This document shows, piece by piece, positions 44 to 17,104 of a stretch of DNA of 37,088 nucleotides (position 1 is the first letter of the stretch; every line of letters starts with the position of its first letter). The notes under the pieces were generated by a model, which saw only the letters and a program-made list of their open reading frames with translations, was not told the DNA's origin and did not search any database. Where the stretch lies: NCBI GenBank assembly GCA_903908605.1, contig CAIVSQ010000149.1:1-37088 (forward strand). The letters run 5' to 3'. The stretch is from an uncultured Anaerolineae bacterium. GTDB lineage: Bacteria; Chloroflexota; Anaerolineae; Anaerolineales; Villigracilaceae. The position numbers were made by a program, and so were the translations under genes.

Positions 44-1585
44 ATGGCTTTCATTGAAATGCGTGATATTGTCAAGGTTTACTCAAACGGCGTGGTTGCC
101 AACAATGGTGTGAATTTTTCGGTTGAGCGCGGCGAAATTCATGCCCTGGTGGGCGAGAATGGCGCTGGGAAATCGACCTTGATGAAACTGCTGTATGGCA
201 TGGAAGGGCTCACTTCCGGAGAGATTTTGCTGGATGGCAAGCCTGTGCAGTTCAGTTCATCCAGCGATGCAATCGCTGCTGGCATTGGCATGGTGCATCA
301 AAATTTTATGTTAGTGCCATCTTTCACGGTTGCCCAGAACATTGTCTTGGGGCAGGAACCCACCAAGGGATCCTTCCTGGATAATGAAGGTGCCATCCGG
401 GTTACAGAAGAGCTTTCCAAGCGTTATGGGCTGCGTGTGGATGCCACCGCCATTGTGGACAGTATCAACGTAGGCATGCGCCAGCGTGTGGAAATCCTCA
501 AAACGCTCTTCCGGGGCGCCCAATTACTGATTTTGGATGAGCCAACGGCCGTTCTAACACCTCAAGAAACCCAGGAGTTATTCCTGGCGGTTCGAGAATT
601 GGTTAAAGAAGGTAAAACGGTAATTTTTATTACCCACAAGCTGCGTGAAGTCAAGGAAATTTCTGACCGGGTTACTGTGATGCGAACCGGTAAGGTGATG
701 GGCATCGTACCCACTTCCGAGGCCACCCGCGAAGGGTTGGCTCGCATGATGGTCGGCAGGGAAGTATTTTTAAACATCGATCGTCCGCCGGTTCATCGAG
801 GCGCTACTGCATTGGAAATTAAGGACCTGTCCTATATTTCAGAAACAGGCCGACCGATGCTTCGCAACGTCTATTTCAACTTGTATCACGGTGAGATTTT
901 GGGTGTTGCCGGTGTGGAAGGCAATGGTCAAACAGAATTGGCCGAAGTTCTTTCGGGTTTGCGTGCCGCCACTACCGGGCAAGCCGTGATTGAAGGCAAA
1001 AATATCCTGAATACAACACCACGTGATGTGCGCCTGGCGGGGATCGGTCATATCCCCGAAGATCGCCTGACAAATGGCGTGGCGCTCAAAGGTTCGATTT
1101 TTGAGAACCTGATCGTCGATCGGTATTTCAAACCAGCATTTCTCACCGGTTGGTCGATCAACTATAACAAAGTGTATAAGCAGGGAAAAGACCTGATTAA
1201 AGAATACGATATCCGCACGATGGATGGATTTGTGCCGCTTGGGGCGCTCTCTGGCGGTAACATGCAAAAAGTGATCGTTGCGCGGGAATTTACTTCAGAT
1301 CCAAAGGTATTGATTGCGGCTCAACCCACCCGTGGTATCGATGTGGGCGCAACTGAGTATATCCGCCGCCGTTTAGTGCAAAAGCGGGTTGAAGGTACTG
1401 CTGTCCTGCTGATCTCGGCCGATTTGAGCGAGGTCATGAGTATTTCGGACCGGATCATCGTTATGTACGAAGGCCAGATTACTTGCGTGATGAAGAACTC
1501 TCCTGAGCTGACAGAAGAAGAACTTGGTTATTACATGCTGGGATTAAAGCACCAGGATCCCGCAGAAATGGAGGCAAACCTGTGA
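44..1585 (+). CDS. Nucleoside-type ABC transporter, fused double ATPase subunit
   Basis: This is the energy-coupling subunit of a BMP/NupABC-type (YufO-like) importer on the cytoplasmic face of the membrane. It contains two ABC domains, as in RbsA and NupA. The N-terminal half has an intact Walker A GENGAGKST (residues 37-45), a Walker B ending in D165-E166, and a degenerate signature (NVGMRQRVEIL). The C-terminal half has a degenerate Walker A (VEGNGQTE) but a canonical LSGGN signature (402-406) and the family hallmark AAQPTRGIDVG. The length of 513 aa is normal. The ATG is preceded by a GGAGG at 32-36. The two following permease genes complete the transporter. The substrate-binding lipoprotein is not in the window and is expected upstream. 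A nucleoside substrate is inferred from family and gene context; ribose or another nucleoside-like compound is possible. Confidence 0.93.
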   Translation: MAFIEMRDIVKVYSNGVVANNGVNFSVERGEIHALVGENGAGKSTLMKLLYGMEGLTSGEILLDGKPVQFSSSSDAIAAGIGMVHQNFMLVPSFTVAQNIVLGQEPTKGSFLDNEGAIRVTEELSKRYGLRVDATAIVDSINVGMRQRVEILKTLFRGAQLLILDEPTAVLTPQETQELFLAVRELVKEGKTVIFITHKLREVKEISDRVTVMRTGKVMGIVPTSEATREGLARMMVGREVFLNIDRPPVHRGATALEIKDLSYISETGRPMLRNVYFNLYHGEILGVAGVEGNGQTELAEVLSGLRAATTGQAVIEGKNILNTTPRDVRLAGIGHIPEDRLTNGVALKGSIFENLIVDRYFKPAFLTGWSINYNKVYKQGKDLIKEYDIRTMDGFVPLGALSGGNMQKVIVAREFTSDPKVLIAAQPTRGIDVGATEYIRRRLVQKRVEGTAVLLISADLSEVMSISDRIIVMYEGQITCVMKNSPELTEEELGYYMLGLKHQDPAEMEANL

Positions 1586-2706
1586 AGCAGTTTTTCAAGT
1601 CCAACACTGGAAAAGAAGTGCTGCGTGTGATTGCCGCGGTCTTGATTGCCTTGCTGATCGGGTTTGTGATCACGTTGTTTGTCAGCAAGGATCCGATTGG
1701 AGCGTATCGCAGCTTCCTGATTGGCCCGGTAACCAAGATAAATCGCTTTGGTAACTGGATACAGGAATCGCTGACCCTGACCATGCTGGGTTTAGCGATC
1801 GCGATTGTTTTTAAGGCCGAAATATTCAGCCTTGGTGCCGAAGGGCAGATGGTGGTGGGTGCGTTGGTATCGGGTTGTGTGGCGCTGTATGTGCCGTTGC
1901 CCATGATGCTGCGTGTTCCCCTGGCATTGGCGGCGGGTGGTTTGGCGGGCTTTCTGCTGGGTATCATCCCTGGTTATTTGAAAGCCTACTTGAGCGCCAA
2001 CGAAATCGTCTCAACCCTGATGTTGAATACAATTTTTCTAAAGTTGTACGAATACATCCTGACGGATTTCATCAAGGCCCCCGATGCAGGTTATACCGCA
2101 TCGCCAGCCTTTCCGCCGGAGGGTAGGTTGTTTTCATTCTTCCCGGACATTGCTTTCCTGGCGAACGTGCGTAAGATATGGGTCGATCAGACCAATATCA
2201 CCACCATGCTGTACATCGTCATTATTTCGGTGGTGGTTGTTTATTTCCTGATGTATCGCACACCCTTTGGGTATGAACTACGCATGTTGGGCGCGAATAT
2301 CAAGTTTGCTCGTTACGGTGGTATGGATACAAAGAAGGCTGTTATGTTGGCAACCGCTGTCAGCGGTATTTTTGCCGGCCTGGCAGGGGCACACCTGAGC
2401 ATGGGTGTTCACAATAAACTGGTTTTGAACATCACAGCTGGGTTGGGCTTTGAAGGTATTGTGGTAGCCCTGTTAGCGCGCAATAATCCAATCCTAGTAC
2501 CGTTCACCGCGCTAGCTTATGGCTACTTGCGCGCCGGGGCCGATATCATGGAGCGTTCCTCGGATGTCTCACGTGAAATGGTCCTGGTGATCCAGGCGAT
2601 TATTATCTTGCTGGTAACCGCGGAGCGCATCATGCCGGAAGTTCGCCGACGTGTGCAGGCTCGCAGCAAACCCAAGGTTGACCCAACACCAGAGGCAGGG
2701 AGCTGA
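1582..2706 (+). CDS. Nucleoside-type ABC transporter permease 1
   Basis: First integral-membrane subunit of the importer, 374 aa, BPD_transp_2 fold (NupB/YufP-like). Many hydrophobic segments are visible: one near residues 12-34, several between 60 and 155, and others around 205-225, 255-280 and 330-350. The characteristic GAEGQMVVGAL stretch lies near residue 85 and a conserved GANIKFARYGG loop near 235. The start is a GTG overlapping the ATPase stop by 4 nt (GTGA), with GGAGG at 1570-1574, so the two genes are translationally coupled. It should form a heterodimeric pore with the next gene product. The C-terminus is a short charged cytoplasmic tail. Confidence 0.92.
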   Translation: MKQFFKSNTGKEVLRVIAAVLIALLIGFVITLFVSKDPIGAYRSFLIGPVTKINRFGNWIQESLTLTMLGLAIAIVFKAEIFSLGAEGQMVVGALVSGCVALYVPLPMMLRVPLALAAGGLAGFLLGIIPGYLKAYLSANEIVSTLMLNTIFLKLYEYILTDFIKAPDAGYTASPAFPPEGRLFSFFPDIAFLANVRKIWVDQTNITTMLYIVIISVVVVYFLMYRTPFGYELRMLGANIKFARYGGMDTKKAVMLATAVSGIFAGLAGAHLSMGVHNKLVLNITAGLGFEGIVVALLARNNPILVPFTALAYGYLRAGADIMERSSDVSREMVLVIQAIIILLVTAERIMPEVRRRVQARSKPKVDPTPEAGS

Positions 2707-2709
2707 ACC

Positions 2710-3690
2710 ATGTCCATTGAAGTTGTTTTGAACAGTATTTTCAGCGCTTTATTCCTGGCGAGCGTTATTCGCATCAGTACGCCGCTGATTTTGCCCGCCC
2801 TGGGCGGCCTGGTTTCTGACCTTTCTGGTGCGCCTAATATTGCACTGGAAGGTATGATGCTCGCCGGTGCGCTGGCGGGTGTTCTGGTCAGTTCCTACAC
2901 CCATAGTGTTGCCCTGGGTGTCCTGGCAGGCATGCTTGCCGGGCTGGTCATATCCATGGTCCTGGCTTACTTTCACCTGGTCCTCAAGACCGACCCGATC
3001 CTGGCAGGTGTTGCCATTAACATCTTGTGCTCGGGCGGTACGATTTTTGTGCTTTATGTTTTGACCGGTGATAAAGGTAATTCCGCCTCATTGATGAGCG
3101 GCGCGGTACCGAATGTTCCCATCCCGATATTGAAGGATATTCCCGTCTTGGGAACAATTCTGAGCGGGCATAACATCCTGACGTATCTTGCTTTCATCTT
3201 TGCCGGGTTGGTTTCCTTAATGTTGTACAGGACCCGTTTTGGAGCGCACTTGCGCGCAGTTGGTGAAAATGCGGTGGCAGCTTCTTCGGTTGGTATCAAT
3301 GTAATCCGCACCCGCGTGATTGCCCTGGCCATCAGTGGCGTCTTGGCTGGTCTTGGCGGTATCAACATGTCGATGGGTTACCTGACTCTTTTCCAGCGTG
3401 ATATGACCGCTGGGCGTGGTTTTATCGCCCTGGCAGCCGTGCACCTGGGTGGGCGTACCCCGTTCGGCACCGTGTTGGCGGCAGTTTTCTTTGGGTTTGC
3501 GGATGCGCTCTCGAACATGCTTGGGTCTTTGAAAATCCCATCCCAACTGGTGCAAATCATCCCGTATGTGGCGACCATCATCGCCCTGGTTTTGTACAAC
3601 GTTCGGCGTCAGTCGCAAATTATTGACCGGGCGCGCAAGTTCCAAGAGAAACACCTCGCTGAAATGGCGGCCATACAAGCCAAGCAGTAA
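2710..3690 (+). CDS. Nucleoside-type ABC transporter permease 2
   Basis: Second membrane subunit of the importer, 326 aa, NupC/YufQ-like. It begins three bases after the first permease stops. Typical features of this subunit are visible: an N-terminal segment with LILPALGGLVSDLSG, then SGAPNIALEGMMLAGA, a mid-protein YRTRFGAHLRAVGEN cytoplasmic coupling loop near residue 180, and a C-terminal hydrophobic segment. Together with the preceding ATPase and permease it gives the standard A-B-C order of nucleoside importers. A 163-nt gap follows before the next gene, the largest break inside the cluster. Confidence 0.92.
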   Translation: MSIEVVLNSIFSALFLASVIRISTPLILPALGGLVSDLSGAPNIALEGMMLAGALAGVLVSSYTHSVALGVLAGMLAGLVISMVLAYFHLVLKTDPILAGVAINILCSGGTIFVLYVLTGDKGNSASLMSGAVPNVPIPILKDIPVLGTILSGHNILTYLAFIFAGLVSLMLYRTRFGAHLRAVGENAVAASSVGINVIRTRVIALAISGVLAGLGGINMSMGYLTLFQRDMTAGRGFIALAAVHLGGRTPFGTVLAAVFFGFADALSNMLGSLKIPSQLVQIIPYVATIIALVLYNVRRQSQIIDRARKFQEKHLAEMAAIQAKQ

Positions 3691-3736
3691 TCTGGCCCGC
3701 TGCCCGTATCATTGACAATCTCATTTTTGCCGGATG

Positions 3737-3853: not shown

Positions 3854-4852
3854 ATGAAAAACAAAGTGCTTGGTGGTATTTATGGACAGGCGTTGGGCGA
3901 TGCCTGGGCCATGCCGGCCTTATTAACTCCAGATGAAACCTGGAATTATTACCATCAATGGTTTAGCGATTTTTACCCTGGTCCGGATCATCATCCTTTT
4001 CACAGAGGATTTATTGCCGGCCGGGTTACAGATGACACAGAGCAAGCCTATGCACTGGCAGAAGAAATTGTGCGCGAAGGCAAGGTTACGGTTGAGGGCA
4101 GTGCACGGGCGATTATGGCCTGGTATGACCGCATTGATGGTGATAACTGTTCCTACGTGGGGCCATCCACCCGCCGGGCTGTCCTTGCAATGAAGCGTGG
4201 TGTGGATGTATATCAGACCGGTCGTTATGGAGATACCAATGGTGCTTCTATGCGAGTCTCACCGGTTGGCCTCATTCACCCAGGGGATGTGGAAGGTGCA
4301 GTTCAAGACACGTACCTATCGTGTGTGCCTACTCATCATACAGATGTGGCTGTTTCAGGGGCCTCAGCCATCGCCGGGGCTATTGCGGTTGCGATGCAGC
4401 CCGGTGTCAGCTTGGATGATATCGTTGCGGCAGGCATGCGCGCAGCTGACATGGGCCGAAAATATGATGAGCACTGGATCGGTGCTTCTGTCAGCAGGCG
4501 CATTAGTATGGCGGTGGAGATTGCCCGGAGCACGCGCTCTGAGCATGAACGACTGCAAGATATTTACGACCTGGTAGGGGCCACCCTGGCGATAACAGAA
4601 TCTGTGCCCTCGGCTTTTGCGGTGCTGGTGATGGCAGATGGCGACCCGATGAAGACGGCCACTTATTCCGCCCAACTCTCAGGGGATGCGGATACCATTG
4701 GTGCCATGGCAACCGCCATTGCGGGCGCCTGGCGCGGGATCGAAGCTATTCCTGCCTGGGTGACGGAAAAGCTGCGGGTGGCCAACCCCGAAATGGATTT
4801 TGATGGCATCGCCGATGGCTTATATCATCTGGCGCTTGCCAATGGAAAATGA
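3854..4852 (+). CDS. ADP-ribosylglycohydrolase-fold protein (ARH/DraG family)
   Basis: The protein (332 aa) is all-helical ARH/DraG fold, a dinuclear-Mg hydrolase family acting on N- or O-glycosidic bonds of ADP-ribose. The start has GQALGDAWAMP. The first metal site is D60-D61-T62 (VTDDTEQ). The C-terminal site is D278-A-D280-T281 (SGDADTIGAMA). The full metal set therefore looks intact. Length fits the family. Its position between a nucleoside importer and a nucleoside deaminase-like enzyme suggests it cleaves a small N-glycoside such as a nucleoside or ADP-ribose-like molecule, not a modified protein. No ADP-ribosyltransferase is present nearby, which supports that reading. Exact substrate unknown. 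AGGAAA upstream serves as a modest ribosome binding site. Confidence 0.85.
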   Translation: MKNKVLGGIYGQALGDAWAMPALLTPDETWNYYHQWFSDFYPGPDHHPFHRGFIAGRVTDDTEQAYALAEEIVREGKVTVEGSARAIMAWYDRIDGDNCSYVGPSTRRAVLAMKRGVDVYQTGRYGDTNGASMRVSPVGLIHPGDVEGAVQDTYLSCVPTHHTDVAVSGASAIAGAIAVAMQPGVSLDDIVAAGMRAADMGRKYDEHWIGASVSRRISMAVEIARSTRSEHERLQDIYDLVGATLAITESVPSAFAVLVMADGDPMKTATYSAQLSGDADTIGAMATAIAGAWRGIEAIPAWVTEKLRVANPEMDFDGIADGLYHLALANGK

Positions 4853-4853
4853 C

Positions 4854-6200
4854 ATGGCTGATGTGTTGATCAGTAACTGTGATGTGCTGCATGTGGATAC
4901 CTTCGGTCCGCGCGTGGAAGCAGGGATGGATATTTTTATCCATGGGCAGCATATCGAGCGTATATCTCCGCACATAGAAGGGCAAGCGATTGCCACAGGT
5001 GTGGAATGTGTTGATGCAACTGGCTTGCTTGCCATGCCAGGATTGATGAACACACATGCGCATGTCCCGATGGTATTGTTCAGGGGTCTGGCTGAAGATG
5101 TCAGCGTGCACGCCTGGTTTAATGATTACATCTTTCCGATGGAATCAGGTTTGACCCCCGAGGATGTCTACTGGGGTGCCATGCTGGGCATGGCCGAGAT
5201 GATCCGTGCAGGTGTGACCAGCGTTGCTGATCATTATTTTTATATGGATCAAGTCGCTCAGGCTGTGTCTGATTCGGGCATGCGTGCCAACCTGGTTTGG
5301 GCGGTTTTCGGACACGAAGGGGTCGAAAAATTAGACCGGACCTGCGAATTTGTTGAACGTTGGCAGGGTAAGGCCGATGGACGCATTAGCACATGGCTTG
5401 GTCCGCATGCTCCCTATACTTGCCCGCCAGAGTTCCTGCGCCTGGCAGCTCAACGCGCCCACGACTTGCAGGTTGGAATTCATATTCATGTTTCAGAAAC
5501 CGCTGAGCAGGTTACGCTAAGCCTTGAACAGCACGGGATCACCCCTGTCCAGATGCTGGCTGAGACCAATGTGTTGTCGGTACCTACCATCCTCGGGCAC
5601 TGTCTCTTCCCGACTGAGGCGGATATCAAGCTACTGGCCGGGGCTCAGAGCGGTGTCGCGCACGCACCCAAAACTTATCTCAAGCTGGGGATGGGCACTG
5701 CGCCCTTGCCTCGTTACCGCGCGGCTGGTATTCCGGTTGGAACCGCCACTGACGGTGCGGTTAGCAGTAACACCCTGGATATCCTCGAGCAAATCCGTTT
5801 GATGGCGCTTACTCAGAAGGATGCAGCCGGGGATTCTACTGTTATGGCGCTCTCCGAAGTATTGGATACGGCTTTTCATGGCAGTGCCCGTGTACTTCGT
5901 ATGGAGGATAAGCTCGGCGACCTGGTTGAGGGCAAACTGGCGGATATTACCTTGATCAGCCAGGACAACCCTGCTATGTTCCCGCGATTTAATGCGGCTG
6001 CCAACCTGGTTTATTCGGCCAGCAGTCGTGATGTGGATACGGTTATTTGCAATGGGAAAATATTAATGCTGCACAAAAACTTACTGACAATTGACCTGGC
6101 ACAGGTCAAGCGGGAAGTTTCCATGCGTCTGGATCGCCTGAATCAGCGCGATCCAAATCGCCGGATTGCCACGTATCCGGGAGGCGAAGCGCGCGCATGA
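4854..6200 (+). CDS. Amidohydrolase, adenosine/SAH/MTA deaminase-like (TRZ/ATZ family)
   Basis: Predicted metal-dependent deaminase, 448 aa from the ATG at 4854. An earlier in-frame ATG at 4800 would overlap the previous gene by 53 nt and adds residues unlike the family, so 4854 is preferred; 4842 is also possible. All hallmarks of the subtype are visible: NTHAHVPM (H68, H70), HIHVSE (H212, E215), LGHC (H249) and ATDGAVSSN (D300). These correspond to the Zn ligands and catalytic Glu/His of S-adenosylhomocysteine/methylthioadenosine deaminase. The likely reaction is deamination of an adenine nucleoside to the inosine form. Guanine deaminase or another cyclic-amidine hydrolase cannot be excluded. 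Its stop overlaps the next start (ATGA), indicating one operon. Confidence 0.87.
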   Translation: MADVLISNCDVLHVDTFGPRVEAGMDIFIHGQHIERISPHIEGQAIATGVECVDATGLLAMPGLMNTHAHVPMVLFRGLAEDVSVHAWFNDYIFPMESGLTPEDVYWGAMLGMAEMIRAGVTSVADHYFYMDQVAQAVSDSGMRANLVWAVFGHEGVEKLDRTCEFVERWQGKADGRISTWLGPHAPYTCPPEFLRLAAQRAHDLQVGIHIHVSETAEQVTLSLEQHGITPVQMLAETNVLSVPTILGHCLFPTEADIKLLAGAQSGVAHAPKTYLKLGMGTAPLPRYRAAGIPVGTATDGAVSSNTLDILEQIRLMALTQKDAAGDSTVMALSEVLDTAFHGSARVLRMEDKLGDLVEGKLADITLISQDNPAMFPRFNAAANLVYSASSRDVDTVICNGKILMLHKNLLTIDLAQVKREVSMRLDRLNQRDPNRRIATYPGGEARA

Positions 6201-6868
6201 TAGTCCAGGTATATGCGTTTACCAGTGTGGAGCAGGCTTGCCAGGCAGCCGAGATGGGTGTTGATCACATCGGTTTTGTGGCCGGGGATTATGGACTTGT
6301 TCCAGGTGAGCTGAGTTTTGTGCAGGCGCGTGCCATGGTCGAAGCTCTTCCAGCCCACGCAACCGCGGTGGCACTGACCATGGCAACCGATGTGGATGAA
6401 ATCCTGCGCATGGCGCGTTTTGTTCGCCCTGGGATCATTCACATTTCCACTGATATGCAGGATGTAGACCTGCCAAAAATGAAAGAACTGCGTGCAAGTT
6501 TGCCCCAGGGTATTTGCCTGATGAAAGCAATCTCGGTCACCGATCAGACTACGCTGCAGGCAGCCGAGTTGTATGCAGCCGAAAGCGATTTTTTGCTGCT
6601 GGATACCAAGTCCGTTTCCATCGCTGGGATTGGCGTAAGCGGAAAAACGCATGATTGGTCGATCAGCCGCCAAATCGTAGAACGTGTGCGCATCCCAGTG
6701 ATCCTGGCTGGCGGACTCAGCCCAGAGAACGTAGCTGAATCGATCGACAGTGTGCATCCATATGGCGTGGATTCCAACACGCACACAAATATGCCCGGTG
6801 AACTGGTCGCCAAGGACATGAACCGCATCCGTTTGTTTGTTGAAGCGGCCCGCAAGCATGAAAAATAA
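6197..6868 (+). CDS. TrpF-like (beta/alpha)8 barrel without the catalytic Cys
   Basis: Homologue of phosphoribosylanthranilate isomerase, 223 aa, a single TIM barrel. The C-terminal half keeps family motifs: LLLDTKS (D136, matching the catalytic Asp), SGKTHDW, and the phosphate-binding VILAGGLSPENVAESI. The N-terminal signature VKICGIT of true TrpF is replaced by VQVYAFT, so the catalytic Cys is Tyr6. The VDVSSGVE segment near the end reads VDSNTHTN. No trp genes are nearby. It is therefore unlikely to make tryptophan. A sugar-phosphate isomerase or ribosylamine rearrangement acting on a nucleoside-derived intermediate is plausible but is inference. The ATG overlaps the preceding stop by 4 nt. 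Confidence 0.82.
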   Translation: MIVQVYAFTSVEQACQAAEMGVDHIGFVAGDYGLVPGELSFVQARAMVEALPAHATAVALTMATDVDEILRMARFVRPGIIHISTDMQDVDLPKMKELRASLPQGICLMKAISVTDQTTLQAAELYAAESDFLLLDTKSVSIAGIGVSGKTHDWSISRQIVERVRIPVILAGGLSPENVAESIDSVHPYGVDSNTHTNMPGELVAKDMNRIRLFVEAARKHEK

Positions 6869-6901
6869 AAAAAATTGCTAGATGGAAGGAAGAGGAATAA
6901 C

Positions 6902-8904: not shown

Positions 8905-8906
8905 AA

Positions 8907-9320
8907 ATGTTAACCAAAATTGATATTCAGACGAACAAAGGCGAAAGCCTGGTCAATATTACCGCTCAGGTTCGCGCCGCAGTGAAGGATAGCGGCGTGC
9001 AAGAGGGCCTCTGTGTTCTGTATGTTCCCCACACCACCGGTGGGTTGGTGATCAATTCCGGTATGGATCCAAATACGGCTAAGGATGTGATTGAAGAAAT
9101 TCACCGCCTGGTTCCTACCAGAGCGGATTTTCACCATATCTTCGATACCCCTGCCGATGCATCCGGGCACATCAAGGCGGTGTTGGTGGGTGGCAGCCAG
9201 GCGCTGATTGTGACCGGTGGAAATGTTCTTTTGGGAAGCTCGCAAAGTATTTTCTTTTTTGAATTTGATGGCCCACGCAACCGGCAGGTTATTGTGCGCA
9301 TTATGAAAGACCAGGAGTAA
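8907..9320 (+). CDS. YjbQ/UPF0047 family protein
   Basis: Small single-domain protein of 137 aa. The start is ATG 8907 with GAGG at 8898-8901; a GTG at 8901 overlapping the previous stop is the alternative. Family motifs are VPHTTGGLVINSG, the central HHIFD...GHIKAVLVG block containing the conserved His residues, and the C-terminal FEFDGPRNRQV. E. coli YjbQ has been reported to show secondary thiamine-phosphate synthase activity, but the physiological role of the family is unsettled. The usual LGTWQ motif is LGSSQ here. No thiamine genes or TPP riboswitch are nearby. The location among nucleoside hydrolases and PfkB kinases argues for a role in the same sugar or nucleoside pathway. Confidence 0.85.
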   Translation: MLTKIDIQTNKGESLVNITAQVRAAVKDSGVQEGLCVLYVPHTTGGLVINSGMDPNTAKDVIEEIHRLVPTRADFHHIFDTPADASGHIKAVLVGGSQALIVTGGNVLLGSSQSIFFFEFDGPRNRQVIVRIMKDQE

Positions 9321-9325: not shown

Positions 9326-10267
9326 ATGGCACAGAAAATCATTTTTGATACTGACCCAGGTGTGGATGATGCCATGGCAATCCTGTTCGGGCTTCATTCG
9401 CCCGAATTGGAATTCCTGGGACTGACCAGCGTTTTTGGCAATACTGATACCGAAACCACTACGCTGAATGCGCTGCGCCTGGTGGAAATGGAAGGTCGCC
9501 CGGATATCCCTGTGGCAAAGGGCGCAGCTAAGCCTTATGTGCGTCCCGAACCCCGCTATGGTCACATGTTCCATGGTGTGGATGGTTTTGGGAATGCCAA
9601 CCTACCCATGCCCAAGGGCAAGGCAATAGAAAAACCAGCTGCGCAGTTTATTGTCGAAACCATCATGGCCAACCCGGGTGAGATTACGCTCGTTGCTGTT
9701 GGACCACTGACCAACCTGGCCCTGGCTTTACGACTCGAGCCACGAATTGTGCAAACGGTTAAGAGCGTGGTAGTTATGGGTGGGGCTGCTTTTAAACCTG
9801 GCAACGTTAACTATGTGGCCGAAGCCAATATATCCAACGATCCGCATGCCGCCAATCTGGTGTTTAGCGCCGGATGGGACTTGACCATGGTGGGCCTGGA
9901 TGTCACCACCCTGGCGATACAGACCAAGGAAATGATTGCGTCGCTCGTCAATACAGGCACCCCCACCACTGATTTCTTAAGAATGATATTACCGGTTTAC
10001 CAGGATGCACATAGAACCAAGGACGGTATGGATGGGGCTATCAATACCCATGATCCATCTGCGATTGGTTACCTGATTGACCCGGGCATGTTTGTTACCA
10101 GGCGTGTGCCTGTTTATGTTGAAACCCAGGGGAAATGCGCCGGTTTTACCGTCCCGGATCCGCGCCGGGCCTGGCAGGAATCTGTGGAAATCAACGTTTG
10201 TGTGGATGTCGATGCACCCAGGTTGTTGCAGTTGATGCATGACCGCCTGGTGCAAACCAAGGCCTAA
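9326..10267 (+). CDS. Inosine/uridine-type nucleoside hydrolase 1
   Basis: Ca-dependent N-ribohydrolase that would split a nucleoside into base and ribose in the cytoplasm, 313 aa. It carries the full IUNH signature: IIFDTDPGVDDAMA with D10, D14 and D15 as calcium ligands, VVMGGA near residue 150, an Asn-rich EANISNDPHAA substrate segment, and H242-D243 in NTHDPSAIG, matching the catalytic His and last Ca ligand of the Crithidia enzyme. AGGAG at the end of yjbQ serves as the ribosome binding site. It is followed by a second, divergent nucleoside hydrolase. Base specificity cannot be read from sequence. Confidence 0.93.
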   Translation: MAQKIIFDTDPGVDDAMAILFGLHSPELEFLGLTSVFGNTDTETTTLNALRLVEMEGRPDIPVAKGAAKPYVRPEPRYGHMFHGVDGFGNANLPMPKGKAIEKPAAQFIVETIMANPGEITLVAVGPLTNLALALRLEPRIVQTVKSVVVMGGAAFKPGNVNYVAEANISNDPHAANLVFSAGWDLTMVGLDVTTLAIQTKEMIASLVNTGTPTTDFLRMILPVYQDAHRTKDGMDGAINTHDPSAIGYLIDPGMFVTRRVPVYVETQGKCAGFTVPDPRRAWQESVEINVCVDVDAPRLLQLMHDRLVQTKA

Positions 10268-10279: not shown

Positions 10280-11206
10280 ATGCGACGCTTCTGGATTGAT
10301 ACAGATACAGCCTCGGACGATGCGGTTGCCATTCTAATGGCACTGCGCACTTCCGATGTGCACGTGGAGGGCATCTCCGTCGCCGCGGGGAATGTGCCGG
10401 TTGAAATGGGTGCGCGTAATGCCCGTTATACGGTCGAGGTATGCGGAAAAGAGACCCCTGTTTACGTAGGAGCCGACAAACCGCTCCTGCGCGAACCGCA
10501 TTTCGCATATTTTTTCCACGGCCCAGATGGCATGGGTGGCACCAATCCCCTTGAGCCGAAAAGGCCAGTGCAAGAGAAGCATGCTGTGCCTGCCTTTATT
10601 GAGGCGGTGCGTAAATACCCGGGCGAGATTACCCTGGTTACCCTGGGACCACTTACCAATATGGCGCTTGCCTTTGCACAAGCGCCTGATATCGCTAAAA
10701 AAATTAAGATGTGTTATGTCATGGGGGGTGCTGCCAATACGCTTGGCAATATCACCCCCTCGGCTGAATTTAATATCTGGTTTGACCCAGATGCTGCGCG
10801 CATGTTCTTTCATTCCGGCATTCCATTCATGATGGTTGGTTGGGAACATTGCCGGGGCAAAGCCAATTTTGACGAAGCTGAGATCCAATCCATCCTGGAT
10901 ATGCAAACGACCTATGCGAAGTTCAGTATTGACATCAATGCCACTGCCATTGCCATCAACCGGGATATGTACAGCGAGCCGGGCTTGAGTTTGCCCGACC
11001 CGGTCACAATGGCCATCGCTTTGGATCCCTCCATCGTAACACGCAGTGGTAAATATTACGTTGATGTGGAAACCAACAGCGAATTGACGCGCGGCGCCAC
11101 GATTGTGGACGAATTGGGCGTGACCCAAAAGATGGCCAACGCTGAAGTATGCTGGTCGATTGACATAGCGCGCTGGAAAGAAGCGCTTTATAAAACAATC
11201 CGGTAG
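10280..11206 (+). CDS. Nucleoside hydrolase 2, variant active site
   Basis: Second IUNH-fold protein, 308 aa. Calcium ligands are present in IDTDTASDDAVA (D7, D9, D13, D14), followed by YVMGGAAN and SAEFNIWFDPDAAR. The last ligand D240 is kept, but the residue before it is Pro239 (LPDPVTM), where nucleoside hydrolase 1 and the inosine-uridine enzymes have His. It is therefore likely active on a ribosyl bond but with different leaving-group chemistry or specificity. The two hydrolases are too different for a recent duplication and probably split different imported nucleosides. It is separated from hydrolase 1 by 12 nt and from the next gene by 5 nt. Confidence 0.9.
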   Translation: MRRFWIDTDTASDDAVAILMALRTSDVHVEGISVAAGNVPVEMGARNARYTVEVCGKETPVYVGADKPLLREPHFAYFFHGPDGMGGTNPLEPKRPVQEKHAVPAFIEAVRKYPGEITLVTLGPLTNMALAFAQAPDIAKKIKMCYVMGGAANTLGNITPSAEFNIWFDPDAARMFFHSGIPFMMVGWEHCRGKANFDEAEIQSILDMQTTYAKFSIDINATAIAINRDMYSEPGLSLPDPVTMAIALDPSIVTRSGKYYVDVETNSELTRGATIVDELGVTQKMANAEVCWSIDIARWKEALYKTIR

Positions 11207-11211: not shown

Positions 11212-12153
11212 ATGGCAACCAAAACAGATGGCACCTGTTATTTCCTGGGAGGATCATCCGTTGATTTAATCCTCGAGATGAATCATATCCCCTTGCCTGA
11301 CGAGAAGGTTCTTGCTCAATTCTCTGGTATGCAGGCTGGTGGCCTGGTGTCCAATACTGCTTGTGCAGCCGCGCGCCTGGGATTGCCATCTGCCTGGGCC
11401 GGGGTGGTGGGCGATGATGAAGGCGGCCGCCTGGTGCTTTCTGAATTTGAGCGTTTTGGCGTGGATGCATCGTACACCCAAATTTTGCCCGGTGCCCGCT
11501 CTGATTTTTGTGTCATCATGCTCGATTCTTCACGTGAACGCACCATTCTGGTGGTTGAGACTACCAAGGGGATGCCAGATCTGACCCCGGCGTTGCTGGA
11601 TCAGCTCGAGTGTGCCCGGCTGGTATATGTCACACCTCAAAAGCAGGCTTTGTATGCCAGTATTGCGGAAACAGTTCATCGCGGGGGTGGGCAGATGGCT
11701 ATTGATGTCGAAGCGGGCAATGCGCTCAATGCCCAGGAACTTGATTTCTGTATTTCGAATGCGGATATTGTTTTTACCAACCGGGCTGCTCTGGAGCGTA
11801 GAGCCGCGGGCGCGAATCTTGAAGAAGGCGCTCGCCATTGGTTGAATATGGGCGCCAGCCTGGTGATTGCCACCTTGGGAGCCGCTGGAGCAGCGGCCTT
11901 TCGCCAGGGTGAAACCCGGTCTCAACCGGGATATATCGTCCCGGTGACGGATACGACTGGTGCTGGTGACTGTTTTCATGCTGCATTCCTTTTTGGCCTG
12001 TTATCCGGTTATTCTCTGGATGACGCGCTAGTCTTTTCCAACGCTGCGGCGGCTTTATCCGTCCAAAAGCTGGGTGCGCGCCCTGGTTTACCAAACATTG
12101 AACAAGTGCGCGCTTTTTTGGCCGGCAATCCATTAACTACGAAAATTGATTGA
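11212..12153 (+). CDS. PfkB-family carbohydrate kinase 3
   Basis: Ribokinase-fold kinase, 313 aa, ATG preceded by GGTAGGCGAT. It has GGSSVDLILEMNHIP at the N-terminus, QAGGLVSNTACAAARLG in the substrate site, and VTDTTGAGDCFHAAFLFG with catalytic Asp at residue 253, the most canonical active site of the four PfkB proteins here. Of the four it most resembles ribokinase-like sugar kinases, so ribose released by the two upstream hydrolases is a reasonable substrate guess. It precedes the SIS-domain gene by 15 nt with AGGAG in between. Confidence 0.91.
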   Translation: MATKTDGTCYFLGGSSVDLILEMNHIPLPDEKVLAQFSGMQAGGLVSNTACAAARLGLPSAWAGVVGDDEGGRLVLSEFERFGVDASYTQILPGARSDFCVIMLDSSRERTILVVETTKGMPDLTPALLDQLECARLVYVTPQKQALYASIAETVHRGGGQMAIDVEAGNALNAQELDFCISNADIVFTNRAALERRAAGANLEEGARHWLNMGASLVIATLGAAGAAAFRQGETRSQPGYIVPVTDTTGAGDCFHAAFLFGLLSGYSLDDALVFSNAAAALSVQKLGARPGLPNIEQVRAFLAGNPLTTKID

Positions 12154-12168
12154 TAGGAGATTAATATT

Positions 12169-13326
12169 ATGAACGGAATGGTAGAACAGATCCACAGTAT
12201 TCCTGGTTTAATCCGCGGGGTTGCCCGCAGTTACGATGAAGCGGTCCGCAATAAGGTTGACCATATGCTCTCCCTGTCGGTGAAACGTGTTTACCTGACG
12301 GGTTGCGGTGATTCGCATCACGCCTCCCTGGGTGCCGAGATGGCCTTTGAACACATTGCAGGCATTCCTACAGAAGCATTGACCTCCATGCAGTATGCCC
12401 GCTATGCCGCACAATTCATGCCAAAATCCGAACCTGGAACCAACCTGGTGATTGGCACCTCTGTATCGGGCGAGGTTTCCCGTACCTTGGAAGCGCTGCT
12501 GTTGGGCAAGAAATACGGTGCCACCACCATAGCGATGACCGCAACGCCGGGCAGTCGGATCGGGCGGGCTGCAGAAATTATGATTGATACCACCCAGCCG
12601 CCTTTCCAGGATCCGCCCGGTGTGCATGTTCCTGGTGTACGCTCTTATGTTGCCAACCAAATTGGCTTGTTGTTGGTTGCCATCCGTTTGGGCGAGGTGC
12701 GTGGTCGTATCCTGACCAGCGAGGCAGACAAGCTGCGTAAGGAAATTGAGTTGCTTGGTGATGCCGCCGAAAAGACCATTGCTGCCTGTGATGGAATCGC
12801 CAAACAAATGGCCGAGGAATGGAAGGATGCGCGGGAATTTGTTTTCGTCGGTGGTGGGCCTAACTTCGCTTCAGCCCTGTTTACGGCCGCCAAGGTGCTT
12901 GAGGCCTCGGGTGATAGTGCCCTGGGTCAGGATACCGAGGAATGGGGCCATTTACAGTACTTCGCACGCCAGGCAGATACCCCCACTTTCCTGATCAGCG
13001 CCGGCGATCGTGATTTATCACGTATGACCGAAATAGCTGTAGCCGCCCGCCAGGTTGGGCGCCGGGTGGCAGCAGTGGTACCCGCGTCAGCGTCGTCGAT
13101 TACGGCCAGTGCCAATAGTGTCCTGCCGTTGGCAGAAGGTGTGCGCGAGATGTTTGCGCCGGTCATTTCGGCTATCCCGGGCAGCCTGTTCGCCGCTTAC
13201 AGGTCAGACGCCATTGGCGAGCCGTTCTTCCGCAATTTCACCGGTGGCCGCAGCACCGAAGGTGGTGGTGGCATCAGCCGTATTCGCACCAGCGATACCG
13301 AAGGTCTCGACCAAATGCCCTCCTGA
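12169..13326 (+). CDS. Double SIS-domain sugar-phosphate protein (GlmS/AgaS-like)
   Basis: Cytoplasmic protein of 385 aa with two SIS sugar-isomerase domains, like the C-terminal half of GlmS. The first domain has LTGCGDSHHAS (residues 45-53) and GTSVSGEVSRT (TSVSGE 97-102), the phosphosugar-binding loops. The second domain contains VFVGGGPNF, and then GQDTEEWGHLQYF at the position of the GlmS ELKHGP motif. No glutaminase domain is present. Such proteins isomerise or deaminate ketose/aldose (amino)sugar phosphates, or remove a sugar from an amine. In this cluster it could act on a ribosylamine- or pentulose-phosphate intermediate, which is inference. AGGAG upstream supports the start. Confidence 0.86.
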   Translation: MNGMVEQIHSIPGLIRGVARSYDEAVRNKVDHMLSLSVKRVYLTGCGDSHHASLGAEMAFEHIAGIPTEALTSMQYARYAAQFMPKSEPGTNLVIGTSVSGEVSRTLEALLLGKKYGATTIAMTATPGSRIGRAAEIMIDTTQPPFQDPPGVHVPGVRSYVANQIGLLLVAIRLGEVRGRILTSEADKLRKEIELLGDAAEKTIAACDGIAKQMAEEWKDAREFVFVGGGPNFASALFTAAKVLEASGDSALGQDTEEWGHLQYFARQADTPTFLISAGDRDLSRMTEIAVAARQVGRRVAAVVPASASSITASANSVLPLAEGVREMFAPVISAIPGSLFAAYRSDAIGEPFFRNFTGGRSTEGGGGISRIRTSDTEGLDQMPS

Positions 13327-13336
13327 GAGGTGCCAG

Positions 13337-14131
13337 ATGAATAATAAATTACCGAAAATTATTGCCGCGCTGCACCTGCCGCCCTTCCCGGGTTCAAATC
13401 ATCCCGATCGGCGTTCGCTGGCTGAAATACGCGATTACACCCTGCGCAACGTGGAAGTAGCTGTACGAGCCGGGGTGACCGGGTTGTATCTGCAGGATCT
13501 TGGCGACCACCCGATTGCACCGCTGGTTCCTACGCATGTTGTCGCCGGGGTGACGGCCATTGGGATGGCAGTGCGGACAGCCTTTCCGGACCTGGCCTTG
13601 GGAGTATGCTTGATGAGCCACGGCGCGCGTGAACCGCTCGCAGTAGCTCAGGCCATTGGTGCGCAGTTTGTGCGCATCAAGGTTTATGTGGGCGTGATGA
13701 TCAAGGCTGAAGGTATGTTGCAGGGCTGTGCGCACGAGGCTATTCAATACCGTGCCCAACTTGGGGCAGAGGATATTGCCATCCTGGCGGATGTCCATGA
13801 TCGCAGTGGCTCGCCGCTTGGACAACTGCCCTTGGCAGAGGAAGCCCGCTGGGCGGCTACGTTTGGCCGGGCCGATGGCTTGATCCTGACCGGGTTGTCG
13901 TTTGCCGAAACCATATCCATGGTTTCGGAAGCGCGTCAGGCCAGGCTGGATGTTCCCCTGCTGATTGGCGGTGGCGTGAATGATAAAAATATTGGCCAAG
14001 CCCTACAGGCCGCAGATGGTGTGATTGTCAGCACGGCCTTCAAGACTGTTGGTGGGTGGACGCGCGAGTCGCTCCAGGCCGATTGGGATCCGGGCCGGGT
14101 TCGGGACTTTGTCACCGCTGCCGCTTTATGA
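13337..14131 (+). CDS. BtpA/SgcQ-family (beta/alpha)8 barrel protein
   Basis: Protein of 264 aa beginning at the ATG at 13337, 10 nt after the SIS gene, with GAGAGG at 13325-13330. A longer in-frame reading from 13055 would overlap the SIS gene by 270 nt and is rejected. BtpA hallmarks are IIAALHLPPFPGS (H13) at the start, an ADVHDRSGSPLG segment in the middle, GLILTG and the phosphate-site-like VPLLIGGGVNDKNIGQAL with DGVIVSTAFK near the end. BtpA was first linked to photosystem I stability in cyanobacteria, but most homologues sit in sugar or nucleoside clusters and have no proven reaction. The barrel with a C-terminal phosphate-binding pattern suggests a phosphosugar substrate. Confidence 0.87.
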   Translation: MNNKLPKIIAALHLPPFPGSNHPDRRSLAEIRDYTLRNVEVAVRAGVTGLYLQDLGDHPIAPLVPTHVVAGVTAIGMAVRTAFPDLALGVCLMSHGAREPLAVAQAIGAQFVRIKVYVGVMIKAEGMLQGCAHEAIQYRAQLGAEDIAILADVHDRSGSPLGQLPLAEEARWAATFGRADGLILTGLSFAETISMVSEARQARLDVPLLIGGGVNDKNIGQALQAADGVIVSTAFKTVGGWTRESLQADWDPGRVRDFVTAAAL

Positions 14132-14170
14132 GGCGCCGCATTGTTTAAAGTTTGCTAAAAGGCGATCGCA

Positions 14171-15070
14171 TTGTATATTTCAATTGGTTCTGTGATTGTT
14201 GATGATATTGTTCTGCCAGATGGGAAAACATACATGGGTATGTTTGGTGGCGGTTCCACCCACGCGATTGCCGGTATGCGCGTTTGGGCCGACCAGGTTG
14301 GCCTGGTCTCCTGGGTTGGAGATAACTTCCCTGATGACATGAAAGCCTTGTTGCAGCAAGAATTTGATTTGCGAGGGGTCGTTCGTCGACACCTGGCGAC
14401 TCCGCGTGCATGGCAGGTATTTGAATGGGACAATAAACGTACTGAGATCTTTCGCACCAGCATGGACGAATTTGTTTTTAATTCCCCAAAGCCAGCGGAA
14501 CTCCCGCTCGAATACAACGGGGCCGCTGGTGTGCACTTGCAGTGCGAGGTACACCACTTTCACGAGTGGGTGAATCTACTGCGTGGGCACGGCACCCGTG
14601 TAATTGTGTGGGAGCCGTGGGGTGAGTTATGCACCCAGTCCAACCGGGCCATCTTTCGTGAATTGATGCCACTGGTGGATGCCATCTCTCCCAACCTGTT
14701 GGAAGCCAAATGTCTGACGGGTCAGGAAGAGCCGGTGGCGATTGCCCAGGCGATGCTGGAGGATGGCGCCAGGTTGGTGGCCCTACGGATGGGGGCTGAA
14801 GGAAGCCTGGTCATGGGCAAGGACTTTCAACCGGTGCGCATCCCGGCTGTGCAAGTGGAGAAGATTGTTGATGTTACCGGGGCTGGCAATGCCTATTGTG
14901 GCGGTTTTGTGGTTGGCCTGGCTGAAACCGGTGATCCGCTACAGGCGGGTTGCTGGGGAGCGGTATCAGGGTCCTTTGCCCTGGAACAGTTTGGCGCGCT
15001 TTACCCGTTTGAGGGTGTGCGTTCCAAGGCACTCCAGCGCCTTGACGTAATAAAAGGAGCTTTGAAATGA
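14171..15070 (+). CDS. PfkB-family protein 4 with Asp-to-Asn active-site change
   Basis: Ribokinase-fold protein of 299 aa. The start must be the TTG at 14171, because an in-frame TAA lies at 14156-14158 and no other start codon intervenes; AAAAGG at 14157-14162 is a plausible ribosome binding site. It has MFGGGSTHAIAGMRVW (substrate site) and DVTGAGNAYCGGF, where the catalytic Asp of GAGD is Asn240. The rest of the ATP-site motif is kept. The change probably removes or alters kinase activity; the protein may bind its ligand as a regulator or perform different chemistry. The same Asn occurs, as far as I recall, in fungal MAK32-like proteins. Its stop overlaps the PurD-like start (ATGA). Confidence 0.85.
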   Translation: MYISIGSVIVDDIVLPDGKTYMGMFGGGSTHAIAGMRVWADQVGLVSWVGDNFPDDMKALLQQEFDLRGVVRRHLATPRAWQVFEWDNKRTEIFRTSMDEFVFNSPKPAELPLEYNGAAGVHLQCEVHHFHEWVNLLRGHGTRVIVWEPWGELCTQSNRAIFRELMPLVDAISPNLLEAKCLTGQEEPVAIAQAMLEDGARLVALRMGAEGSLVMGKDFQPVRIPAVQVEKIVDVTGAGNAYCGGFVVGLAETGDPLQAGCWGAVSGSFALEQFGALYPFEGVRSKALQRLDVIKGALK

Positions 15071-16386
15071 AGATTTTGCTGGTTGGAAATGGTGGTCGTG
15101 AACACGCCATCGCGGCGGCGCTCAGCCGGTCCAGGTTGCACCCTGAGTTGATTGCCTATATGAGTACATTAAACCCGGCGATTGCCGCGTTGTCTGCCAA
15201 AACCCAAATGGGTTCAATGAAAACACCGGAATCGATCGCAGATTTTGCCTGGCAAAACCGGGTGGATCTGGCTGTTGTTGGCCCTGAGGAGCCCCTTGTA
15301 CACGGAGCTGCAGACGCTTTGCATCGCAAGGGTATTCCGACGGTTGGTCCCCGGCAAGACTTGGCGCGTATGGAAGGGGATAAAACCTTCTTGCGTGAGG
15401 TCGTAGCGCGCTGGGCACCAGAGGCCAACCCAGGTTTCCGGGTCTGCCATTCTTCGCAAGATGTGCGTAAGGCTTTGGTCGAGTTGGGCGATGTTGCGGT
15501 TAAGCCGTTGGGCCTGACAAGTGGCAAAGGTGTGCGCGTGATGGGTATTCAGCTGGATACCGCGGCGGACGCCGAGGCCTATGCAGTTGAATTGATCAAC
15601 GCCCAGGGCAATGTGCTATTGGAAGAAAAACTGATTGGGGAAGAATTCAGCCAGATCGTTTTCACTGATGGCATCAGGATGGTACCGATGCCGCTTGTTC
15701 AGGATGCGAAATGTGCCTTTAATGGTGACACTGGTCCGATGACGGGAGGGATGGGCACATTCAGCATGCCCAATCACACCCTGCCGTTTGTTCCAGAAGA
15801 CCAGCTTCAGCAGGCGCGCGCACTGCTTTTCAAAATTATCATGGGTGCACAGGAACAGACCGGGCAACGTTATCATGGTGTGCTGTATGGGCAATTCATG
15901 GTAACCCGAAATGGTCCGCGTATCGTTGAGACCAATGTTCGCCTGGGAGATCCAGAGGCAATTAACCTGATGGCTCTGCTTAAGAGCGACCCGGTGGAAA
16001 CCTTTATGAGTGCGACCTGTGGTCTGCCCGAGGTGGTAGAATTTGAAAACATGGCCTCGGTAGCCAAGTACCTGGTGCCGCAGGGTTATCCTGAGAAATC
16101 GGAACGCGGTGAGCCGGTATCCATTGACATGGATATGTTGCGGAAGGCTGGTCTTGAACTAATTCTTGCCAACGGAGATCCTTCCAGTGGAGATGGGCGG
16201 CTGGCGCCAACCGGTTCACGCTTCGCGGCTTTGTTGGCCCTGCGGCCGGAACTTGCCGCAGCGGAAGAAGCAGTAGAATCGATGCTTGAACAGATGGCGC
16301 TTCCCGGTTTGCGCCATCGTTCCGATATTGCCAAGCCAGGTTCCTTACAGGCAAAAATTACGCGTATACAGAATTTGCTGAATTGA
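15067..16386 (+). CDS. PurD-like ATP-grasp ligase, archaeal type
   Basis: Homologue of phosphoribosylamine-glycine ligase, 439 aa. It has the N-terminal LLVGNGGREHAIA (G7-H13), VVGPEEPLV, the ATP-grasp lid VKPLGLTSGKGVRVMG, GDTGPMTGGMG (220-230) and the metal site ETNVRLGDPEA (E288, N290). EEKLIGEEFSQ and VLYGQFMVT resemble archaeal PurD more than the E. coli form. KPLGL replaces the usual KADGL/KPDGL. It could be the genuine purine enzyme of this organism, but no other pur gene is near and it is translationally coupled to a PfkB gene of the nucleoside cluster. An amino-ligase acting on a ribosylamine-type intermediate is therefore a serious alternative. Confidence 0.85.
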   Translation: MKILLVGNGGREHAIAAALSRSRLHPELIAYMSTLNPAIAALSAKTQMGSMKTPESIADFAWQNRVDLAVVGPEEPLVHGAADALHRKGIPTVGPRQDLARMEGDKTFLREVVARWAPEANPGFRVCHSSQDVRKALVELGDVAVKPLGLTSGKGVRVMGIQLDTAADAEAYAVELINAQGNVLLEEKLIGEEFSQIVFTDGIRMVPMPLVQDAKCAFNGDTGPMTGGMGTFSMPNHTLPFVPEDQLQQARALLFKIIMGAQEQTGQRYHGVLYGQFMVTRNGPRIVETNVRLGDPEAINLMALLKSDPVETFMSATCGLPEVVEFENMASVAKYLVPQGYPEKSERGEPVSIDMDMLRKAGLELILANGDPSSGDGRLAPTGSRFAALLALRPELAAAEEAVESMLEQMALPGLRHRSDIAKPGSLQAKITRIQNLLN

Positions 16387-16399
16387 TAAAGAGAGGAAT

Positions 16400-17104
16400 A
16401 TGACAGATCACTTTATTAATATCTACAAATCCCGGGCAGATGCCTATCACCGCATGATTGCGGTGGAAGATTATCAAAACCAGGTGTTCAAAGCCGTTCA
16501 AGCGGTTACCCCGCTGGATGGTAAGCGCATTCTGGATCTGGGAAGTGGTACGGGGCGATTCCCGCTCATGCTGCATGGGTTGGGTTGTAAGCTGGTGGCC
16601 CTCGATTTGCATTTGGCGATGCTGCGCGAACAAAAACAGCAGCGCGCACAGGTGCAAGGCGACTGGGAGCTTCTCCAGGCGGATATGCGCGCCTTGCCTT
16701 TTGCTGAACGTGGCGCGGATATCGTCATGGCGGGTTGGGCCATTGGTCACATGCGTGCCTGGTTTGCATCCGATTGGAAGTTGCAGATGGGTGCGGCAGT
16801 GGATGAAATGCAGCGGATGGCCGTTCCGGGAGGAACCCTGTTCGTTTTTGAGACCATGAGCACGGGTAGTCATACCCCGGCGCCGCCGAACAACGACCTG
16901 GCCGAATATTACCACTGGCTGGAAACCGAACGGGGCTTCAGCGCTCACGCTCCCATCCAGACTGACTATCGCTTTGATTCGGTCGATGAGGCGGTCGAGT
17001 TCACGCGCTTTTTCTTTGGCGACGAATTGGCAGCAACCATCCAGCGTGAAGGCTGGGCTATTTTGCCCGAATGGACGGGCATGTGGACGAAACAACTGGC
17101 CTGA
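16400..17104 (+). CDS. Class I SAM-dependent methyltransferase
   Basis: Soluble protein of 234 aa with the Rossmann-type SAM-binding motif I ILDLGSGTGRF (DLGSGTG at 46-52), an acidic ALDLHLAML at the end of strand 2, LLQADMRALPF (motif II region) and a VPGGTLFVFE post-motif strand. The target is unknown; the fold is of the ubiquinone/UbiE-like small-molecule type. It is the last gene before a bidirectional terminator, 13 nt after the PurD-like gene, with GAGAGG upstream, so it belongs to the same transcript. It may modify a product of the cluster or be an unrelated last gene. Confidence 0.85.
   Translation: MTDHFINIYKSRADAYHRMIAVEDYQNQVFKAVQAVTPLDGKRILDLGSGTGRFPLMLHGLGCKLVALDLHLAMLREQKQQRAQVQGDWELLQADMRALPFAERGADIVMAGWAIGHMRAWFASDWKLQMGAAVDEMQRMAVPGGTLFVFETMSTGSHTPAPPNNDLAEYYHWLETERGFSAHAPIQTDYRFDSVDEAVEFTRFFFGDELAATIQREGWAILPEWTGMWTKQLA

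Follow-up and report, generated by a model that had tools for sequence, protein, structure and literature searches.

What does the run of 17 genes at the left end of a 37,088-nucleotide stretch of DNA from an uncultured Anaerolineae bacterium do, and is it ordinary nucleoside salvage or does it include enzymes of another kind? The whole stretch, here called the window (G000:C149:1-37088, contig C149 of source genome G000), belongs to a 5.77-Mb metagenome-assembled genome (MAG). The run is very probably an island for nucleoside import and catabolism, and within it two dedicated kinase modules probably exist as units: a TrpF-like protein with the kinase PfkB1 (Module 1), and a double-SIS protein with a BtpA protein and the kinase PfkB4 (Module 2). 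With less assurance we lean towards the full reading, a nucleoside scavenging island with kinase-first modules for 5-phosphoribosyl compounds, whose substrates and chemistry we infer. An open reading frame (ORF) list and a Pfam scan give the following co-directional genes between positions 44 and 17104 (G009 is a genome of the same genus):

44-1585, + strand: ABC importer ATPase with two ABC domains, BMP/nucleoside class (PF00005; best NCBIfam model NF047930 at 439.5 bits, under its cut-off of 670; 71% identical to the G009 copy)
1582-2706, + strand: ABC permease A (PF02653; 65% to G009)
2710-3690, + strand: ABC permease B (PF02653; 65% to G009)
3854-4852, + strand: ADP-ribosylglycohydrolase-family hydrolase, ARH (PF03747; 37-38% to E. 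coli YegU-type proteins; DDTE and GDADT stretches present)
4842-6200, + strand: amidohydrolase of the methylthioadenosine (MTA)/S-adenosylhomocysteine (SAH)/5'-deoxyadenosine deaminase group (PF01979; PDB entry 4f0r, an MTA/SAH deaminase, 4e-59; every NCBIfam model under its cut-off)
6197-6868, + strand: TrpF-like barrel with Tyr6 replacing the catalytic Cys and Asp136 kept (alignment, tree, AlphaFold model and Foldseek search, below)
6875-7930, + strand: PfkB1, the kinase adjoining the TrpF-like gene (PF00294; in the tree with TrpF-like-linked kinases)
7927-8904, + strand: PfkB2, a kinase whose counterpart adjoins ARH in genomes G203, G422 and G340 (PF00294)
8901-9320, + strand: YjbQ/UPF0047 protein (TIGR00149 at 133 bits, over the cut-off of 67.75)
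9326-10267, + strand: nucleoside hydrolase NH1 (PF01156, 309 bits)
10280-11206, + strand: nucleoside hydrolase NH2 (PF01156, 310 bits)
11212-12153, + strand: PfkB3, ribokinase-like (PF00294; TIGR02152 at 137 bits, under the cut-off of 299.65)
12169-13326, + strand: double-SIS protein with Glu245 and His261 spaced as in GlmS and FrlB (PF01380)
13337-14131, + strand: BtpA/SgcQ-family barrel (PF03437, 140 bits; corrected start)
14171-15070, + strand: PfkB4, a divergent kinase found at SIS loci (PF00294; 20-row tree group with support 100/99)
15067-16386, + strand: archaeal-type PurD ligase (TIGR00877 at 327 bits, over the cut-off of 288; 100/100 with three of five archaeal PurDs)
16400-17104, + strand: class I methyltransferase, probably incidental (PF08241)

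The earlier note on this DNA had described 17 genes of these families on one strand with many 4-nucleotide (nt) overlaps, and this description holds: the families have Pfam matches, five of the 16 junctions are exact 4-nt overlaps and 14 of the 16 lie at 15 nt or less, the two wider ones being 163 nt (permease B to ARH) and 39 nt (BtpA to PfkB4). The amidohydrolase probably starts near 4842 instead of at the mechanically assigned TTG at 4800, and BtpA probably at the ATG at 13337, which replaces 13055.

The run is interrupted by the left end of the contig, between the genes for the BMP protein and the ATPase. When G000 was searched with the BMP protein of G009 (PF02608), a BMP gene (67% identical) was found 40 bases from the end of another contig of the same genome, C84, whose genes read toward the break are a GntR regulator (35% to the G009 regulator), a 278-aa ORF, an M42 peptidase (44%), a nucleoside hydrolase and BMP. 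Because G009 has the matching order GntR, nucleoside hydrolase, BMP, ATPase, permeases and ARH onward, C84 and C149 very likely adjoin, and the complete island probably has at least 21 genes. Both broken ends (window 1-43, and the end of C84 in L232) carry GGCAGGC-type repeats that look hairpin-like by eye. If the contigs adjoin, a Bmp-domain protein, a two-domain ATPase and two BPD_transp_2 permeases stand together, and judged by family this BMP/PnrA-type importer would carry nucleosides. A named B6 importer was rejected as its identity; the nearest named NCBIfam models, putative B6 importers, are all under cut-off.

Conservation was judged in a sample of 396 genomes of the class, with G000 itself included in the match counts; SIS matches occur in 69 of them (E 1e-40) and TrpF-like matches in 16 (E 1e-25). 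The gene grouping is not due to chance, since the shared families recur in the same order in G009 and in three genomes from other families of the class, G203, G422 and G340, with the exception that the PurD-type and PfkB1-type genes of G203 lie upstream of the importer. This bears out the suggestion that the neighbourhood would be conserved in relatives. G009 has the importer, ARH, the amidohydrolase, TrpF-like, PfkB1, PfkB2, YjbQ, NH1, NH2 and PfkB3, then a second PfkB4-type kinase, SIS, BtpA, another nucleoside hydrolase, PfkB4 and M42. The G203 order is a PfkB1-type kinase, a second BtpA, GntR, a PurD-type ligase, M42, BMP, the importer, ARH, PfkB2, a PsuG-type gene, NH1, NH2, SIS, BtpA, two PfkB4-type kinases and two nucleoside phosphorylases (PNP_UDP_1). 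Importer genes, ARH, PfkB2, YjbQ, NH1, NH2, SIS and PfkB4 are found in both G422 and G340, where no BtpA, TrpF-like, amidohydrolase or PurD matches were found in the stretch read. The methyltransferase was rejected as a cluster member because it is the best hit of no ORF in the relatives' cluster loci (51 locus stretches); the earlier note had counted it in, and it is probably incidental to the island.

To place these counts against a background, 24 SIS loci were fetched of the 73 places outside G000, mostly the best-scoring ones, and the 23 of at least 6 kb were counted (one of 3.7 kb was dropped). PfkB is present at 14 of the 23, nucleoside hydrolase at nine, ARH at five, BtpA at five and BMP at four. 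As a control, 34 of 44 other loci, each 6 kb or longer, were counted in the same way; PfkB is present at three and nucleoside hydrolase and ARH at none, and the three PfkB cases are themselves TrpF-like-clade loci (L010, L012 and L013). TrpF-like with PfkB1, SIS with BtpA and PfkB4, ARH with PfkB2, and the hydrolases are independently present or absent in different genomes and can stand alone. The genes thus behave as separable modules, and a single linear route for one unusual nucleoside, as had been proposed, is not supported; the phosphoribosyl or ribosylamine intermediate of that proposal stays putative.

Nucleoside salvage itself stands from the earlier proposal, given an importer and nucleoside enzymes whose order is conserved across families. 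Further support comes from the G203 cluster, with its PsuG and its two PNP_UDP_1 phosphorylases, and from the cluster of genome G111, where an adenine deaminase gene separates PfkB4 from SIS. Nucleosides are the cargo of BMP importers of this kind, nucleoside hydrolases release base and ribose, the amidohydrolase group deaminates adenosine derivatives, and PfkB proteins phosphorylate sugars and nucleosides. By these family memberships the BMP/PnrA-type ABC importer would bring in nucleosides, NH1, NH2, the third hydrolase (on C84), ARH and the deaminase would cut or deaminate the ordinary ones, and the ribokinase-like PfkB would phosphorylate the released ribose. Those nucleosides, N-ribosides or sugars on which the hydrolases do not act would enter the kinase-first modules, as pseudouridine does via PsuK and PsuG.

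The TrpF-like protein of Module 1 has the TrpF fold: its AlphaFold model (predicted local distance difference test, pLDDT, 94.7) finds 1lbm as top Foldseek match (E 7.9e-15, TM-scores 0.78 and 0.89), the phosphate-loop motifs of TrpF are kept, and it passes the gathering score of the Pfam PRAI family PF00697 (60.8 against 22.7 bits). Its best NCBIfam score is 104.3 bits against a cut-off of 215, and it lies under the cut-off of all 13 listed TrpF-type models. The Cys of the KICG motif and an Asp are catalytic in TrpF; in the alignment to T. maritima TrpF, Tyr6 takes the place of that cysteine, and Asp136 matches the aspartate. A tree of 50 chosen rows (all trees were midpoint-rooted) puts 36 of them in the TrpF-like clade, with support 100/96, and the Tyr and Asp are present in all 36. 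The genome has a true TrpF elsewhere, on C57, which scores 132 bits (131.9) with PRAI against about 60 for the window protein. The TrpF-like protein was therefore rejected as the tryptophan enzyme of this genome, and the unrelated housekeeping role that the earlier note had named as the result that would undo its cluster is unlikely for it.

PfkB genes accompany this clade repeatedly. Thirty clade loci were examined (the window excluded; G070, G095 and Halostella included), and at 16 of them the starts of the TrpF-like and PfkB genes are no more than 2 kb apart; six of the 13 PfkB-linked loci from the first 27 have a 4-nt TrpF-like/PfkB overlap. At three rhizobial loci of the 30, which also encode a MurR-type regulator, an aminotransferase and a sugar importer, PfkB is about 6.2 kb off. 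In the haloarchaeon Halostella a stretch of about 9 kb contains TrpF-like, PfkB, nucleoside hydrolase, BMP, ATPase and permeases, and the TrpF-like/PfkB pair as a whole spans Chloroflexota, Bacillota, Alphaproteobacteria and Halobacteria. PfkB1 groups with kinases of G001, G009, G063 and G099 and the rhizobial TrpF-like-linked kinases (99/99). In G203 BtpA follows the PfkB1-type kinase in place of TrpF-like, which hints that BtpA and TrpF-like may occupy the same slot beside such a kinase. In Module 1, PfkB1 would phosphorylate the 5' position and the TrpF-like protein might then open the ribose ring and isomerise or hydrolyse the N-glycoside; this ring-opening chemistry we regard as possible rather than probable.

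Several other observations touch this family. A Mesorhizobium sp. L-2-11 plasmid (L200) has, in about 12 kb, TrpF-like, BtpA and amidohydrolase genes with PurH, SAICAR synthase and a ribofuranosylaminobenzene phosphate synthase-like gene; this group may be a cluster for a nucleoside product. At L170-L175 (genomes of family f59) the TrpF-like proteins are 53-55% identical to the window protein and their genes are flanked by HisA/HisF-type genes; the six genomes have a stronger TrpF match elsewhere.

In Module 2 the SIS protein has a Glu that is followed 16 residues later by a His (E245 and H261 in the window), the pair found in FrlB/FraB-type enzymes, and the same spacing is seen in E. coli GlmS, in FrlB, in all 19 aligned SIS relatives (L161-L163, L166, L186 and L187 were not included) and in the Mesorhizobium and Streptosporangium proteins. 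This pair is catalytic in GlmS/FrlB-type enzymes. PfkB4 falls in a deep group of 20 kinases (100/99), all from SIS loci, and the SIS-linked kinase of Mesorhizobium joins its inner group (91/80). The Mesorhizobium plasmid pMHb has in one run GntR-UTRA, kinase, SIS, BtpA, BMP, ATPase and two permeases; a Rhizobium leguminosarum plasmid has SIS with YjbQ, a phosphorylase-like ORF, a PfkB4-type kinase, nucleoside hydrolase pieces and GntR; and in Nonomuraea the BtpA and SIS genes overlap by 4 nt. Since BMP importers and nucleoside enzymes accompany SIS and BtpA both in Mesorhizobium and in another family, housekeeping is unlikely for them as well. Here PfkB4 would phosphorylate, SIS would act as an aldose-ketose isomerase or deglycase via Glu245 and His261, and a neighbouring step would fall to BtpA, which is probably a phosphosugar barrel; the order of these steps is rather doubtful.

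A Streptosporangium plasmid (L188 10980-12954) carries BtpA and SIS beside 7-deazaguanine genes (QueE, QueD-type, FolE and a phosphoribosyltransferase), a group that resembles a deazapurine product cluster. M42-type peptidases accompany BtpA genes at L223, L217 (13079-14206), L085 (7740-8777) and L232, and in the E. coli sgc genes SgcQ occurs with the peptidase-type SgcX, which we take to be an M42 member. A search for BtpA and SIS relatives in viral contigs found none.

Could these modules be no more than broad-range scavenging, in which the PfkB proteins are ribokinases and nucleoside kinases of differing base preference and TrpF-like, SIS and BtpA isomerise or epimerise pentose phosphates without new chemistry? 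The usual salvage families do make up most of the cluster, ribulose-phosphate epimerases are among the Foldseek matches of the TrpF-like model as well, and double-SIS proteins and TIM barrels are commonly sugar-phosphate isomerases. However, the four kinases fall into well-separated groups, for two of which specific partner enzymes are found again in other phyla, and the loss of the catalytic Cys with retention of Tyr throughout the clade suggests a distinct reaction, so we consider this explanation unlikely.

The second alternative, Amadori-type catabolism resembling E. coli Frl or Salmonella Fra, we rate as a minority possibility. PfkB would phosphorylate ribosylamine or 1-amino-1-deoxyribulose compounds, imported or self-formed, TrpF-like or BtpA would rearrange them, the SIS deglycase would cleave them and the UTRA regulator would sense an intermediate. 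PfkB, SIS and a GntR-type regulator do occur together, as frlD, frlB and frlR do and as in Mesorhizobium (FrlR being a GntR-UTRA protein); the SIS Glu/His pair is like that of GlmS and FrlB; and TrpF and HisA perform Amadori rearrangements of phosphoribosyl amines, while six genomes have the TrpF-like gene flanked by HisA/HisF-type genes. Yet the curated FrlB model scores 28 bits with the SIS protein against a cut-off of 430 and the GlmS model is also far under its own, FrlD lies outside the PfkB4 group, the importer is of BMP type and the hydrolases are nucleosidases.

The PurD-type ligase adds a further element to the scavenging island. It meets the cut-off of TIGR00877, an equivalog-domain model, and in the PurD tree it stands with the three archaeal proteins, the other side holding two Archaeoglobi proteins and the PurDs of same-genus genomes G003, G005 and G010. 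The Asn of the GPNTGGMG loop is Met in the window, G203 and G122 and Glu in one archaeal relative, so this feature is not strict. Matches at E 1e-60 are limited to 3 of the 396 genomes (G000, G203 and G122), each of which also carries SIS and BtpA. In the last two the ligase gene comes after one for a GntR that shares 47% identity with the G009 regulator. PurM and PurH were checked in seven same-genus genomes (G000, G001, G002, G009, G003, G005 and G010). PurH was found in all seven; no PurM over cut-off was found in the first four, the best match in G000 (91.5% complete) being 28.8 bits against a cut-off of 236; a strong PurD match is missing in G001, G002 and G009; and in each of G003, G005 and G010 a single open frame matches both PurD and PurM. 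Without a detected PurM the product of PurD is not expected to reach purines along the usual route, and the ligase was rejected as the purine enzyme of the genome; it may instead join phosphoribosylamine to an amino acid. That the lineage lost PurD and PurM, that the island now serves mainly to take in and remodel purine nucleosides for salvage, and that the archaeal-type PurD recently took the place of a lost purine gene, would fit the PurM, PurD and PurH pattern and the TIGR00877 score, but is improbable, since PurD without PurM cannot feed purines and nucleoside hydrolases with ribokinase-like kinases indicate catabolism.

A number of observations weigh against a nucleoside island with two kinase-first modules. 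The link from BMP to the rest of the importer spans a contig break, in a MAG that is 91.5% complete and 6.4% contaminated. Eight of the 23 SIS loci have no PfkB, nucleoside hydrolase, ARH, BtpA or BMP; SIS and PfkB4 occur without BtpA in G422 and G340; and the 91/80 support that joins the Mesorhizobium kinase to PfkB4 is under the tool's 95/80 mark. The single-sequence model of BtpA (pLDDT 53.8) was too poor for a structure search, so that the support for its phosphosugar role is its glycine-rich motif. The rhizobial TrpF-like genes accompany a CUT1 sugar importer and an aminotransferase and no nucleoside importer; in six of the 30 loci the gene lies between two HisA/HisF-type genes without PfkB, and in five it has neither neighbour, so TrpF-like may act outside nucleoside salvage. 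The TrpF-like-linked kinases of Solobacterium, L009, G111 and G168 form their own group (100/98) apart from PfkB1, which makes the pairing recurrent and not strictly of one kinase lineage. Finally, in two of the 11 genomes tested, G122 (L182) and G262 (L176), the Tyr-type protein is the sole PRAI match, so that the tryptophan step is possible there and a claim that the family never serves tryptophan is weakened; either these assemblies miss TrpF or the Tyr-type protein does its job.

Taken together we would tentatively read Tyr-type TrpF-like with PfkB as a new N-riboside route, SIS with BtpA and PfkB4 as a second, and PurD as capturing freed phosphoribosylamine, a combination we think possible yet doubtful. 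In it the TrpF-like/PfkB pair would be the nitrogen-linked counterpart of PsuK-PsuG, with 5'-phosphorylation followed by ring opening and N-glycosidic isomerisation or hydrolysis. Scavenging itself is known; what would be new is the two putative enzyme modules within it, which are seen in several phyla and, for one of the two, in an archaeon as well. The literature searched yielded no description of them, which left most subscription journals outside, and we know of no settled role for BtpA/SgcQ, this double-SIS family, YjbQ, the yegUV ARH-PfkB pair or the Tyr-type TrpF-like family. Their repeated pairing with a nucleoside-type importer and particular kinases gives a short substrate list for each family, and, if true, the TrpF-like pair would explain genes annotated as spare TrpF copies and sugar kinases, in haloarchaea and rhizobia included.

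Beyond the run, the phosphopentomutase gene deoB (17280-18482, - strand) converges on the island, and DeoB would connect the ribose 1-phosphate and 5-phosphate pools. Farther on, at 21918-24202, two NBR1-type Ig-like domain proteins (PF16158) and a multi-zinc-ribbon protein follow a lysine 2,3-aminomutase-like gene.

How, then, does the island compare with known systems? It shares a BMP protein, a two-domain ATPase and two BPD_transp_2 permeases with BMP/PnrA nucleoside ABC importers, and differs in that the closest named NCBIfam models are the putative B6 importers, under cut-off. Its TrpF-like protein shares fold, PF00697 score, phosphate-loop motifs and Asp with TrpF but has Tyr for the catalytic Cys and falls short of the NCBIfam TrpF-type cut-offs, with the true TrpF elsewhere in the genome. 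Like E. coli yegTUVW it has a PfkB in the same operon as an ARH, the two ARH proteins being of one family (37-38%), together with a nucleoside-type transporter and a GntR regulator (the last on C84, taking the contigs as adjacent), whereas its importer is a BMP ABC system and PfkB2 lies outside the YegV group; PfkB2 was rejected as a YegV orthologue on its separate place in the tree, and no SIS, BtpA, TrpF-like or PurD gene was found in the E. coli yeg stretch read. The effector of YegW is reported as ADP-glucose (PMC10819704). PsuK-PsuG offers a kinase-first logic, and a PsuG-type gene (Indigoidine_A) adjoins PfkB2 in the G203 cluster; the window, however, has no PsuG, and E. coli PsuK is distant from all four island kinases. 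The fructoselysine operon frlABCDR likewise has PfkB, double-SIS genes and a regulator in one operon, with the SIS Glu/His pair, but its importer and its SIS and PfkB groups are others, and the island has nucleosidases. The nearest described relatives of the island are thus yegTUVW, PsuK-PsuG and frlABCDR, each of which shares part of its logic and differs from it in the features tested.

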